Source of the DNA: Arthrobacter sp. SLBN-112
GTDB taxonomy: Bacteria > Actinomycetota > Actinomycetes > Actinomycetales > Micrococcaceae
Reading direction: 5' to 3'
DNA: 64,000 nucleotides
Assembly: GCF_030944625.1 (NCBI RefSeq)
Contig: NZ_JAUSXY010000001.1
Coordinates: 2,790,001 to 2,854,000, forward strand
This document shows, piece by piece, positions 2,353 to 15,233 of the stretch; the stretch's first letter is position 1, and each line of letters starts with the position of its first letter. The translations under genes were made by a program, and so were the position numbers. The notes beneath the pieces are model-generated. The model searched no databases, was not told where the DNA came from, and worked only from the letters and a program-made list of their open reading frames with translations.

Positions 2353-2404
2353 TGGGGCCATCCTTTGGGGTGTAGTGGGGGGCTGATGAATTGGGCGGGA
2401 AACT

Positions 2405-2432
2405 AAGAGCGCGTTCTTTCCAGCGCGCTCTT
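2405..2432 (-). terminator. Rho-independent-type hairpin after the PPOX gene
   Basis: Perfect 9-bp arms AAGAGCGCG / CGCGCTCTT separated by 10 nt, overlapping the stop codon of the flavin-binding gene. On the minus strand it would end that transcript before the stress-protein gene. No strong U tract follows, so efficiency is uncertain. Confidence 0.5.
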
Positions 2433-2887
2433 CACTCCGTTGCGGGCTCCCGCGGCGGCCACCAGTGCGTTGGCGCCGCGATGACGAACCTCCGGCCGCT
2501 GATGCCCTGCGGCGTAACCCGGATGAGGGTGTTCTTCTGGCCCGGTTGCCAGGGTGAGAGTCCGGCATCCATGGCGTCCTGGGTCTCCTCCGCATCCGAA
2601 ACAACGGTCGCGCGCCCCTTGAGGATGACGCTCCAGGCAATGGTTCCATACTGGTTCATGCCGTCCGCTTCAACGGCCACCATCTTGTCGTCGAAGGAGG
2701 ATAGTTTTGTTGCCTCACCCGTACGCATCAGCAGAGTTCCGTTGGTGGTGACAAAGTTCATGGGAAAGTTCTCAACTGAGTCGCCGTCCGTGAACGCGAT
2801 CCTGCAAACGGACGCGGACTGAAGGAGTTTCCAACAATCGTGGACGCCGAGTTCCTTGACTTCCGGTTCTGCCCCTGCTGTATCCAT
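2432..2887 (-). CDS. Pyridoxamine 5'-phosphate oxidase-like (PPOX class) flavin-binding protein
   Basis: A 151-residue single-domain protein with the split beta-barrel pattern of PPOX-class proteins: CRIAFTDGDSVENFPMNFV, then TLLMRTGEATKLSSF, then the strand SVILKGRATVVSD. Such proteins bind FMN or F420, and many actinobacterial members are of unknown substrate; it is probably not a true PdxH, which is longer. The gene stands alone between the two-domain Usp gene and the divergent sensor kinase gene. A DosR-box-like palindrome lies 36 nt upstream of its ATG, so induction by the neighbouring two-component system is likely. Start ATG 2887 is the first in frame; no convincing Shine-Dalgarno sequence is seen. 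Confidence 0.8.
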   Translation of the reverse strand: MDTAGAEPEVKELGVHDCWKLLQSASVCRIAFTDGDSVENFPMNFVTTNGTLLMRTGEATKLSSFDDKMVAVEADGMNQYGTIAWSVILKGRATVVSDAEETQDAMDAGLSPWQPGQKNTLIRVTPQGISGRRFVIAAPTHWWPPREPATE

Positions 2888-2922
2888 GGCCGTAGCCTAG
2901 GACCGTGAACATTCTGCCGGTA

Positions 2923-2936
2923 GGGGAAAAGGTCCC
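2923..2936. promoter_or_regulatory. DosR-box-like palindrome upstream of PPOX gene
   Basis: GGGGAAAAGGTCCC matches the core of the mycobacterial DosR consensus GGGACTWWAGTCCC at 10 of 14 positions. It sits between the divergent PPOX gene and the sensor kinase gene. It is one of four similar sites in this island; function is inferred. Confidence 0.45.
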
Positions 2937-3099
2937 GCTGGTGCAGAGCGGCTGACGACAGTGAGCTGGTCTCCCGCAGCGCATGGCGGATGCCTGCCGT
3001 TGACGCGGAACCTAGACTACTCCCAGAGGATGTCTTCGAACACTTGATTTCGCGCTACGGGCCCGCTGCCAGGCAGGCTTTTGCCGCCGGAGGTGGGAC

Positions 3100-13049: not shown

Positions 13050-13111
13050 GACGCCGGACCTTCCAGGTGGGGAAATGGACAGGTTGGGAAGACGGCCTGC
13101 GGGCTCTGCGG

Positions 13112-13978
13112 CTAGATGGTGTCCTTCACGGCCTGGGTCCGGGTAATGATCGTGGGGCACGGAAGGTGCTTCAGCACGCCATGGGCGGTTGAACCCAGCA
13201 GCAGGCGTTTGAAGGCGCCCCGCCCGCGGCTGCCCACCACCAGGAGGCGGGCCCCCGCGGCGGCATCCACGAGGGCGTCCACCGGGCCGCGGTCGGATAC
13301 AAGGCGCTGCTGCACCGTCAGGTCCGGGTAGTCTTCCTTGAGCCCGGCAACGGTCTCGGAGAGGACGATGCGTTCTTCATCGACGATGAGGTCTGCGAGG
13401 GCGGCGGGTGTCAGGCCGGCATCGATGACCGGGTCCGGGACATTGACGGCGTAGACGACCGTGAGTTCGTCACCGTTGCGGTCTGCTTCGGCCGCAGCGA
13501 ATGCGACGGCCTGGGTCGATTCCGCGGATCCATCCACGCCAACCACCACACCGGTCCTGCCTTCAAGGTCCTGGGTTCCGATGACGGCGACCGGAACCTT
13601 GGCGGCGGTGGCAACCTGGAGTGCGCGGTCGGCCAGGGCGCCGCCAAGGTGCCCGCTGCCGGAGCCGATGACCATCATGGAGGTCTTCTTGGAATATTTG
13701 GCCAAGGCCCCGCCCACGCTTCCGGTGAGCATTTCCGTGGCGGGGGTCACCGGCACGGACCCTTCGAGGCGTCCGGCGGCGGTCTTGAGGAGTTCCTCGC
13801 CGGCCTGCTGGAGGGTTCCGAACCAAGGGTACGGTTCCGCGATCCATCGGTCATCCACCACGTGGACGATCACCAGTGGCAGGTTGGCGCGATGGGCACG
13901 GCGGGCTGCCCACAAGACAGCGGCCTGGCTTTGTGCTGAATCGTTGGTGCCCACGGCGATTGGTTTCTGTGATGACAT
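13112..13978 (-). CDS. Universal stress protein, two Usp domains
   Basis: A 288-residue tandem Usp protein, paralogous to 1486-2352. They share the opening PIAVG, the VVDDRW segment, the second-domain GVDGS-ESTQAVA(F/Y)AAAEAD and the end CPT(V/I)ITRT. The second-domain loop VVGSRGRGAFKRLLLGS fits ATP binding. AGGAAG lies 7 nt before ATG 13978. The promoter region up to the permease gene contains a DosR-box-like palindrome 73 nt upstream. Together the two paralogues bracket the stress island. Confidence 0.9.
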   Translation of the reverse strand: MSSQKPIAVGTNDSAQSQAAVLWAARRAHRANLPLVIVHVVDDRWIAEPYPWFGTLQQAGEELLKTAAGRLEGSVPVTPATEMLTGSVGGALAKYSKKTSMMVIGSGSGHLGGALADRALQVATAAKVPVAVIGTQDLEGRTGVVVGVDGSAESTQAVAFAAAEADRNGDELTVVYAVNVPDPVIDAGLTPAALADLIVDEERIVLSETVAGLKEDYPDLTVQQRLVSDRGPVDALVDAAAGARLLVVGSRGRGAFKRLLLGSTAHGVLKHLPCPTIITRTQAVKDTI

Positions 13979-14050
13979 GGCCGCACTTCCTGCTTGTCGT
14001 GAAGGGTCTTCCTGCCCTTCAAGACTGGCCCCCGCCCCATCGGCACTCTA

Positions 14051-14064
14051 GGGCCGAAAGTCAC
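14051..14064. promoter_or_regulatory. DosR-box-like palindrome upstream of two-domain Usp gene
   Basis: GGGCCGAAAGTCAC matches the DosR core at 11 of 14 positions, with flanking bases CTA and CGA partly fitting the longer TTS...SAA form. It lies 73 nt upstream of the Usp start at 13978. Confidence 0.55.
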
Positions 14065-14087
14065 CGAAGCCGGTGCGCGGGGGGACC

Positions 14088-15233
14088 TTAAGTCGCGGGC
14101 CCGGACGGAGTGGGAGGTTCCCCCGCTGTTGCTTCCCGTTCGGCGACGGTCTTGTAGATGGTCCATCCGACGGCGGCCAGCGGGACGGCGAGCAGGGCCC
14201 CGACCACCCCGGCCAAGGTTGCCCCGGCCGTCAACGCCAGGATGATGACCAGCCCGTGGATCCGCAGGACGCGGCCCATGAAGACAGGCTGGAGGATGTG
14301 GTGTTCGAACTGGTTTGCGGCCACCAGGATGACCAGCACGATGAGTGCGGGAACCGGTCCGTTTTCCACGAGCGCAACAAGCACGGCGAGGCTGCCGGCG
14401 GTGGTTGCCCCGATGATCGGAATGAACCCGCCCAGGAAGACCACGGCTGCCAGCGGGACGGCCAGCGGGACCCGGAGGATCAGCAGCCCCACCAGGACCA
14501 GGACTGCATCGATCGCGGCAATGACCAGGGTGCCCCGGACGTAGCCGCCGAGTACCAGGAGGCTGCGTTCTGCCGCCAGCTGTGCCCTTCCTTGGTGGTT
14601 CCCGGGAAGGAACCCGATAACGAACATCCGGATTTTCTCGCCATCCTTGAGGAAGAAGAACAGGATGACAGCCGTCAGGACCGTGCCGGCGGCAATCTCC
14701 CCGGCGGTCCTGAGCCCGGTCAGCGCATCGGCTCCCAGGGTTCCCCCGGCGAGGAACTTCTGGAATTCGCTGCGGGCCGCGTCAATCTGCGCATTGGTCA
14801 GCGCGACGGGTCCGGTGGTGATGAATTGCTGCAGCTGGCCAATCCCCGCCTCGGCCCGGGCTGCCAGCACCGAGGCCTGCTGCCGGACCAGCGCAATGAT
14901 GCCGCCCACCACCCCGGCAGCCACGGCGATGATCACCAGGAAGGAAGACAGCACTGCAAGGGCCCGGGGGAACCCCCGTGCGGCGAGCCACCGCACTGCA
15001 GGAGCCATTGCCGAGGCCAGGATCAAGGCCACCAGGACCGGGATGGTTACCAGCGGAACCCGGGTGGCGGCCACCACCACCACCCAGGCAAGCGCCAGCA
15101 GCGAGAGCGTCTGGACCGCCCGGATGCTCGCCCGGCCCAAGCTGTCAGCCCACAGCGCTGACATCCGCGCAGCGAAGGACGGCTGCCAGGACGGTTCTGC
15201 CCCACGCCCGTCCGGGGATACATTGCGTTCCAT
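14088..15233 (-). CDS. AI-2E family transporter (PerM-like permease)
   Basis: A 381-residue polytopic membrane protein with about eight helices. Typical family segments are a large loop after helix 3, then FFFLKDGEKIRM and the C-terminal block GFIPIIGATTAGSLAVLVAL and LAGVVGALLAVPLAAVGWTI. Family members have been assigned to autoinducer-2 export, Na+/H+ exchange or solute efflux; the substrate here cannot be read from sequence. AAGGAG lies 5 nt before ATG 15233. It runs in the same direction as the downstream Usp gene, with 109 nt between them that contain a separate DosR-like site, so it need not belong to that regulon. Confidence 0.8.
   Translation of the reverse strand: MERNVSPDGRGAEPSWQPSFAARMSALWADSLGRASIRAVQTLSLLALAWVVVVAATRVPLVTIPVLVALILASAMAPAVRWLAARGFPRALAVLSSFLVIIAVAAGVVGGIIALVRQQASVLAARAEAGIGQLQQFITTGPVALTNAQIDAARSEFQKFLAGGTLGADALTGLRTAGEIAAGTVLTAVILFFFLKDGEKIRMFVIGFLPGNHQGRAQLAAERSLLVLGGYVRGTLVIAAIDAVLVLVGLLILRVPLAVPLAAVVFLGGFIPIIGATTAGSLAVLVALVENGPVPALIVLVILVAANQFEHHILQPVFMGRVLRIHGLVIILALTAGATLAGVVGALLAVPLAAVGWTIYKTVAEREATAGEPPTPSGPAT

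Follow-up and report, generated by a model that had tools for sequence, protein, structure and literature searches.

OsdR of Streptomyces coelicolor is the published functional counterpart of DevR (or DosR) of Mycobacterium tuberculosis; its predicted regulon, as set out in Table 1 of that paper, holds Usp genes, PPOX (pyridoxamine 5'-phosphate oxidase family) and pyruvate phosphate dikinase, with boxes like AGGGACCTTCGGCCCC, and an intergenic SCO5978/SCO5979 probe with CGGGACCTTCGGCCCT is bound by OsdR in vitro (PMC5069765). In published accounts of the mycobacterial system, Lys179, Lys182 and Asn183 are the DosR base contacts (PMC4082495, PMC5861037), a Gly at the position of DosS Glu87 goes with a stable oxy complex, though this is debated (PMC4082495), and the M. 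tuberculosis DevR promoters that were analysed have in common a box overlapping the -35 element (PMC3029386). Here we describe a window of 64,000 nucleotides from Arthrobacter sp. SLBN-112 (contig NZ_JAUSXY010000001.1, positions 2,790,001 to 2,854,000; seven-digit positions below are genomic, shorter ones those of the window), which in all likelihood carries the right-hand portion of a dormancy island of the DosR/OsdR type, about 27 kb long and controlled through short DNA boxes by the kinase DevS1 and the response regulator DevR1. Such a regulon is no new kind of system, as OsdR has already been published (PMC5069765), and the local regulon is, by its sequence features, a further member of the DosR/OsdR kind. 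Our literature search, over open-licence PMC articles, returned no title on a DosR/DevR system in Arthrobacter, nor any on a DNA-blind DosR paralog of the sort described below.

An earlier note on this window had pointed to four palindromes fitting GGGnCnAARGTCMC or a near form, and all four are present where it placed them, two as exact matches (11441-11454 and 14051-14064) and two with one mismatch (2923-2936 and 5611-5624); a fifth near-match, absent from its list, lies on the other strand at 5686-5699. The note had all four as intergenic, but the site at 11441 is not wholly so, as it shares 4 bp, stop codon included, with the 3' end of the DUF4389 open reading frame. As DevR boxes these sites read GGGACCTTTTCCCCT (2922-2936, minus strand, -49 from the PPOX start codon), CGGACTTTGGTCCCT (5610-5624, minus strand, -121 from devR1, suggesting autoregulation), ATGACTTTTGGCCCT (5686-5700, plus strand, -69 from the Usp gene that starts at 5755), GTGACCTTCGCCCCT (11440-11454, minus strand, -79 from the Usp gene at 10908, head of a Usp-deacetylase-ATPase unit) and GTGACTTTCGGCCCT (14050-14064, minus strand, -86 from the tandem Usp gene at 13112), and all boxes share one orientation relative to the downstream gene.

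These boxes are real on the grounds of position, clustering, orientation and conservation rather than of counts. The island is largely syntenic across 15 genomes of the same genus, in which we footprinted GKGACYTTNGNCCCT at up to two mismatches over the 250 bp upstream of each gene, in the orientation of that gene, excluding ortholog rows that had less than 55% identity, began past residue 12 of the query or offered fewer than 100 bases upstream. Twenty-nine genes entered the footprint: nine were boxed, 13 unboxed, six mixed or negative, and one (176 amino acids, at the left edge) was without ortholog. Upstream of the nine boxed genes the pattern occurs in 114 of 119 regions and its reverse in 1 of the 119; the pattern is found for DUF5129 in 7/9, DUF1508 in 10/10, Usp_a in 15/15, HSP20 in 13/13, PPOX and devR1 each in 15/15, Usp_c (5755) in 13/13 and the tandem Usp_e (13112) in 14/14 relatives with a usable start, and Usp_d (10908) in 12/15. 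The 13 unboxed genes, operon-internal or flanking, have 0/151 boxes in gene orientation, a figure that excludes opposite-strand matches (hyp68 8/14, SHOCT 3/9, CtpF 1/11, and none for the tandem UspUsp gene and the others). In alignments the boxes stand as identity islands within diverged intergenic DNA, and the DosR-type boxes that the earlier note had seen ahead of PPOX, devR and the Usp-led units are thus upheld in relatives. Phosphoenolpyruvate (PEP) synthase has a variant box, GGGACCAAAGACTCT, at -49/-50 in 15/15 upstream regions (its own and those of 14 relatives) at up to two mismatches; this variant was formulated after inspection of the own site, and the main pattern finds 3/14.

DevR1 (4829-5503, minus strand; 224 amino acids; Pfam Response_reg and GerE), a NarL/DosR-type response regulator, has as its best PDB match M. 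tuberculosis DevR (3c3w, E 3.3e-65), with which its recognition-helix stretch KTVKNYVS is identical. It keeps the phospho-acceptor Asp54, the receiver Lys and the full contact triad Lys179/Lys182/Asn183, the triad (KTVKN) and the phospho-Asp being kept in 15/15 relatives; its assignment as a DosR/DevR/OsdR-type regulator is well supported by these residues, and phosphorylation-dependent DNA binding is predicted. DevS1 (3142-4782, plus strand; 546 amino acids; Pfam GAF, HisKA_3 and HATPase_c), for which an alternative earlier GTG start at 3100 is possible, is a GAF-type heme sensor kinase matched by the DosT/DevS GAF-A structures (E 4.3e-53 to 2.7e-51, PDB sequence search). DevS1 has the GAF-A proximal His, the distal Tyr, the phospho-His and, at the place of DosS Glu87, the Gly typical of DosT, and all four residues are present in 46/46 kinases from the relatives and the own second island (15 DevS1, 11 DevS2 and 20 DevS3); from the Gly, DosT-like direct O2 binding is predicted for DevS1. 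The DevR-like regulator and the DevS-like kinase of the earlier note are accordingly both encoded, the latter as a DosS/DosT-type heme kinase, and the note's gene identities agree with Pfam and, for DevR and DevS, with the PDB sequence search.

Stacking the nine promoter families on the box start brings out a -10-like signature, A at +38 (0.7) and T at +42 (0.7). On this basis transcription is predicted to begin near +49, counted from the box start, with the box centred near -42 and overlapping the -35 element. At the PPOX promoter the -10-like TAGGCT (2894-2899, minus strand) is conserved in relatives by alignment and stacking. Translation of PPOX, Usp_a and PEP synthase starts at +49/+50 on the same scale, near the predicted transcription start, so that these transcripts would be leaderless. 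What the DNA shows directly are the protein families, the integrity of the catalytic and contact residues, and the boxes with their conservation and spacing.

In the mechanism that we infer, which extends to the signal, phosphotransfer, binding, direction of regulation, operons and transcription starts, DevS1 would sense O2, perhaps also nitric oxide (NO) or carbon monoxide (CO), through heme in GAF-A, and loss of O2 from the heme would lead it to phosphorylate DevR1; by analogy, a hypoxia or NO signal would follow from family membership. Dimers of phosphorylated DevR1 would then bind the GKGACYTTNGNCCCT boxes centred near -42, overlapping -35, and switch on devR1 itself, the Usp genes, the PPOX-Usp-ATPase, Usp-deacetylase-ATPase and Usp-DUF4389 units, HSP20 and PEP synthase, an output that would also include envelope-type genes.

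A number of observations weigh against such control. Six genes are mixed or negative in the footprint, with gene-oriented matches at up to two mismatches in 3/9 for DUF4386, 8/8 for hyp111, 4/12 for the GyrI-like gene, 0/15 for a ZntA-type ATPase (opposite strand 10/15), 3/14 for PEP synthase and 1/15 for devS1, which has no gene-oriented box of its own, unlike the situation in mycobacteria, where devR and devS form an operon. The box is missing before Usp_d in 3 of 15 relatives and before DUF5129 in 2 of 9, and the opposite strand of the DUF1508 regions matches too (7/10), as expected of a near-palindromic box, so that evidence on orientation is weak for that gene. The 119 cases are not independent, since the relatives share ancestry, and the genome encodes other NarL-type regulators (at most 39% identity, apart from the paralog DevR2). 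As to counts, the window holds five matches to the consensus at up to one mismatch where 2.31 are expected, and at least five occurred in 8 of 100 shuffles. The genome-wide motif scan that the earlier note had proposed, run with the consensus pattern, gave no enrichment: there are six exact matches and 11 for the reversed pattern, and the gene-orientation form at up to one mismatch gives 98 versus 198 reversed. Given this and the unremarkable window count, the existence of a regulon could not be proved by scanning for the motif alone, and a genome-wide regulon drawn from such a scan was rejected. In favour of the boxes, four of the six exact matches cluster inside 27 kb around the devRS genes; a perfect site at 2259400 lies within a reading frame called as citrate synthase and was left uncounted. 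The M. tuberculosis core GGGACTWWAGTCCC at up to three mismatches gives four matches versus 5.44 expected and recovers only two of the four palindromes, which the earlier note had called close to that core; the boxes depart from the mycobacterial consensus and have a related asymmetric form.

It is very unlikely that the boxes are conserved sites of some other regulator (CRP-like, another NarL-type protein, or the -35 element of a sigma factor), with DevR1 a mere neighbour, although the DevR1-box link is drawn here from sequence evidence only and further NarL-type regulators are at hand in the genome. The box stands upstream of devR1 itself in 15/15 relatives, and the box GGGACCTTCGGCCCT at 2776929 is wholly contained, 15 letters identical, in the SCO5979 box CGGGACCTTCGGCCCT of the region that OsdR binds (PMC5069765). 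The box is moreover enriched near devR: at up to one mismatch, matches number 49 versus 5 reversed in Micrococcaceae and Cryobacterium (22 loci), 28 versus 0 in the Nocardioides group (19 loci) and 33 versus 0 in Micromonosporaceae (18 loci). It is not enriched in Kitasatospora/Streptomyces/Embleya (2 versus 1, nine loci), where the OsdR box form occurs instead with eight matches, a palindrome and hence without a reversed control. These groups cover 68 of the 80 devR loci of named genomes, the other 12 being left out, and two mismatches weaken the contrasts (114/50, 65/20, 63/13 and 13/8 in the same order). Chance matches in GC-rich sequence, to which the window and genome-wide counts at or below control would point, are next to impossible and were rejected on conservation, not on counts, being refuted in practice by the near-fixed places of the boxes of nine genes across 15 relatives with near-zero controls, by the identity islands in diverged alignments, and by five further one-mismatch matches in the island besides the given four (0.58 expected, P about 3e-4, for an interval set post hoc).

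Control by DevS1 and DevR1 would embrace five Usp genes, three single-domain and two tandem by Pfam, and as further members PPOX, HSP20, PEP synthase, polysaccharide deacetylase, DUF4389, DUF5129, DUF1508 and four island P-type ATPases (Pfam/NCBIfam), with operons inferred from strand and spacing. PPOX (2432-2887, minus strand; PF12900) heads a unit with a tandem Usp gene (1486-2352, minus strand; two Pfam Usp stretches; own box 0/15 relatives) and an 810-amino-acid P-type ATPase, whose N-terminal part occupies 1-1464 on the minus strand (start side 1464) and whose gene call continues left of the window, with Pfam E1-E2_ATPase on the whole protein (L008:17032-19464). To the right of the single-domain Usp gene at 5755-6255 (plus strand) lie genes for a DUF3040 protein (6307-6627, minus strand; Pfam) and a SHOCT-domain protein (6668-6925, minus strand; 24.9 bits, just below the gathering score of 27). 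Downstream of the 11440 box come a single-domain Usp gene (10908-11375, minus strand) and, as probable operon members, a polysaccharide deacetylase (9881-10861, minus strand; PF01522) and a class II (Ca-type, CtpF-like) P-type ATPase (7090-9783, minus strand; Pfam). The earlier note had called the latter CtpF, a name that is putative, as TIGR01522 scores 650.9 bits, below its cut-off of 798.3, and no NCBIfam equivalog cut-off is reached. The 14050 box precedes the second tandem Usp gene (13112-13978, minus strand; two Pfam Usp stretches) and a DUF4389 protein, a probable operon member (11451-13049, minus strand; PF14333). Deacetylase (0/11 relatives), CtpF-like ATPase (0/11) and DUF4389 (0/14) have no box of their own, and can therefore join only as downstream operon members.

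The earlier note had taken this for a complete local regulon, which proves too narrow. About 13 kb of the island to the left of the window carries boxes too, with Usp, HSP20, PEP synthase, DUF5129 and DUF1508 genes; PEP synthase is named by NCBIfam TIGR01418 (1087.8 bits versus a cut-off of 739.75), and at L008:14016-16436 Pfam finds pyruvate phosphate dikinase (PPDK) domains where NCBIfam gives PEP synthase (pyruvate, water dikinase). A second devRS island lies near 4.01 Mb. From the 98 matches, 15 extra stretches were chosen by eye; of the 17 one-mismatch sites in them, a crude gene caller puts eight within genes and nine between genes, and the only convincing case is a divergent pair at 4091305/4091364 (G000:C1:4091305-4091464, L028), between a second HSP20 gene (plus strand) and a short-chain-dehydrogenase-like reading frame (minus strand, named by eye); by its upstream boxes this second HSP20, near 4.09 Mb, is a probable regulon member outside both islands.

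The second island encodes DevR2, a DosR paralog (4011669-4012334; G000:C1; L011:13669-14334), tail-to-tail with DevS2 (4012391-4014064), and has boxes before a LiaF-like gene in 7/7 orthologs and before the gene at 4018546 in 5/7, one of the two box-less orthologs of the latter sitting at a locus edge. An ATPase beside DevS2 (L010:160-2904) scores above the cut-off that NCBIfam sets for magnesium-translocating P-type ATPase. DevR2 occurs in 26 of 198 genomes of the genus, the own one included, with 27 loci at at least 59% identity; 25 of the 26 also have a DevR1-like match, and the exception has DevS1 at a contig edge. In a family draw of 149 genomes (E 1e-70) it passes in one of 32 genera, this genus only, a limit that may not be strict because one DevR2-like cluster (P0064) is named Paenarthrobacter. 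Its gene has a box at -122 to -125 in 12 of 26 loci, comparable to the -121 of devR1, and the other 14 have no gene-oriented box within 350 bp at two mismatches. At all 14 loci where both were searched, DevR2 adjoins a DevS2-type kinase, which is intact in 13 and, at the second DevR2 locus of G017, split over two frames (G017:C1:3409492-3411125). DevS2-type kinases are also found in L154 of G040, G020 and G059, where no DevR2 can be recognised in the vicinity or the genome. Between devR2 and the LiaF-like gene, a relative has a 197-amino-acid reading frame of unknown family (L156:11009-11602) with a one-mismatch box, GGGACTTTCAGCCCT, upstream at 11733; the own genome may have lost this gene yet kept a box at 4011449.

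DevR2 has lost the residues with which DosR contacts DNA bases. All three contact residues are replaced in the 26/26 loci read, and in database clusters, taken from 120 of 286 matches listed and split between DevR2 and DevR1 at P0076 by identity order, the 76 DevR2 clusters among the matches listed keep Lys179 in two, Lys182 in one and Asn183 in one, never two together, whereas each residue is kept in 40 of the 41 DevR1-like ones; Asp54 is kept in 68/76. Two intermediates, P0077 and L226 (G040), keep Lys182 and Asn183 and have lost Lys179 and the acidic pair, possibly a snapshot of contact-residue loss. At L214, L219 and L221 the phospho-acceptor Asp54 is Asn, at L225 part of the receiver looks as if translated in a locally shifted frame, through decay or a sequencing error, and the DevR2 of the own genome has Met in place of the receiver Lys and a short tail. 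In a midpoint-rooted tree, with a warning of long branches, 28 DevR2-type rows group together (support 100/99; 26 core rows 91/88). Across pairs from 12 genomes with DevR2 synonymous divergence (dS) below 1.2, the ratio of nonsynonymous to synonymous substitution (dN/dS) is 0.135-0.345 for DevR2 and 0.018-0.087 for DevR1 in the same pairs (DevR2 receiver 0.14-0.35, helix-turn-helix part 0.08-0.54), and none of the 27 loci has an internal stop codon. AlphaFold2 predicts the receiver and three helix-turn-helix helices of DevR2 (representative P0024) confidently, with pLDDT about 85-98 in the latter; a fourth C-terminal helix, modelled in DevR1 at 209-218 (pLDDT about 71-87), has no confident DevR2 counterpart, in models whose alignments differ in depth. 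A C-terminal PxPIPRAW-type tail, new in DevR2, is present in 46/76 clusters among the matches listed.

By these substitution patterns DevR2 stays under purifying selection. It probably serves as a phosphate sink or as a partner blind to DNA; because the DNA-contact residues are lost, it probably tunes DevR1 output instead of reading boxes. It would compete for phosphate or, as a heterodimer, for dimer partners, and we tentatively suggest, as one possibility, that it is a built-in brake on the dormancy switch, where capture of phosphate or dimers would limit or end the DevR1 response and make re-awakening tunable. On this reading DevR2, once a DosR twin, has shed its base-contact residues and the C-terminal dimer-type helix, has acquired the PxPIPRAW-type tail in most clusters, and retains its phospho-site in most species and usually a heme kinase of its own. 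The brake would be self-induced in about half of the species, since devR2 there still has, at the position inherited from its ancestor, a box for the active regulator. That DevR2 is a decaying duplicate and no functional modulator appears rather doubtful: the triad is lost, dN/dS is several times that of DevR1, the phospho-Asp is missing in 3/26 loci and L225 looks frame-shifted, the promoter box is recognisable in just 12/26, one DevS2 neighbour is split and some DevS2-type kinases lack a DevR2, but the 27/27 loci without stops, the whole-gene dN/dS, the conserved scaffold and the tail of 46/76 clusters (among the matches listed) argue for constraint. It is unlikely that DevR2 still binds DNA, under a changed specificity, and governs a regulon of its own, a role with which the confidently predicted three-helix scaffold would be compatible, as the contact positions hold varied residues, mostly small or acidic, which is unlike one new code, and the predicted fourth helix of DevR1 finds no confident match.

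With a DosR/OsdR-type island under DevS1 and DevR1, this dormancy logic would reach the Arthrobacter group of soil actinobacteria, where the box, the promoter geometry and the list of targets are defined, so that hypoxic dormancy could become studyable outside pathogens. The DevR2 twin would allow the damping and reversal of a dormancy switch to be tested in a natural setting.

As predicted here, the targets of M. tuberculosis DosR include Usp and alpha-crystallin-type HSP20 genes. The island differs from that system in its asymmetric box, GKGACY..NGNCCCT, in the DosT-type Gly of every kinase examined and in the presence of a DevR2-type paralog. It shares with M. tuberculosis DosR/DevR-DosS-DosT, as these are described, the base-contact residues, the phospho-Asp, the heme His and the distal Tyr (PMC4082495, PMC5861037), and the overlap of box and -35 element (PMC3029386). 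With OsdR/OsdK (SCO0203/SCO0204) it shares, on the published description, a kinase and a NarL-type regulator within a Usp cluster, PPOX, a PEP-forming dikinase-type enzyme, and boxes surrounding the regulator genes (PMC5069765). Unlike OsdR/OsdK, no nitrate reductase is among the island genes run through Pfam here, the core of the box is predominantly TT instead of GC-rich, devR and devS stand tail-to-tail, the island holds HSP20 and four P-type ATPases, and there is a second devRS island with a regulator that is probably DNA-blind. In this last respect a parallel is the ChrS pseudokinase variant of Corynebacterium, where likewise a degenerate copy is kept in a paralogous heme-responsive two-component network, with the difference that there, as reported, it is the kinase that is degenerate (PMC9491836), and here the DNA-reading surface of the regulator.

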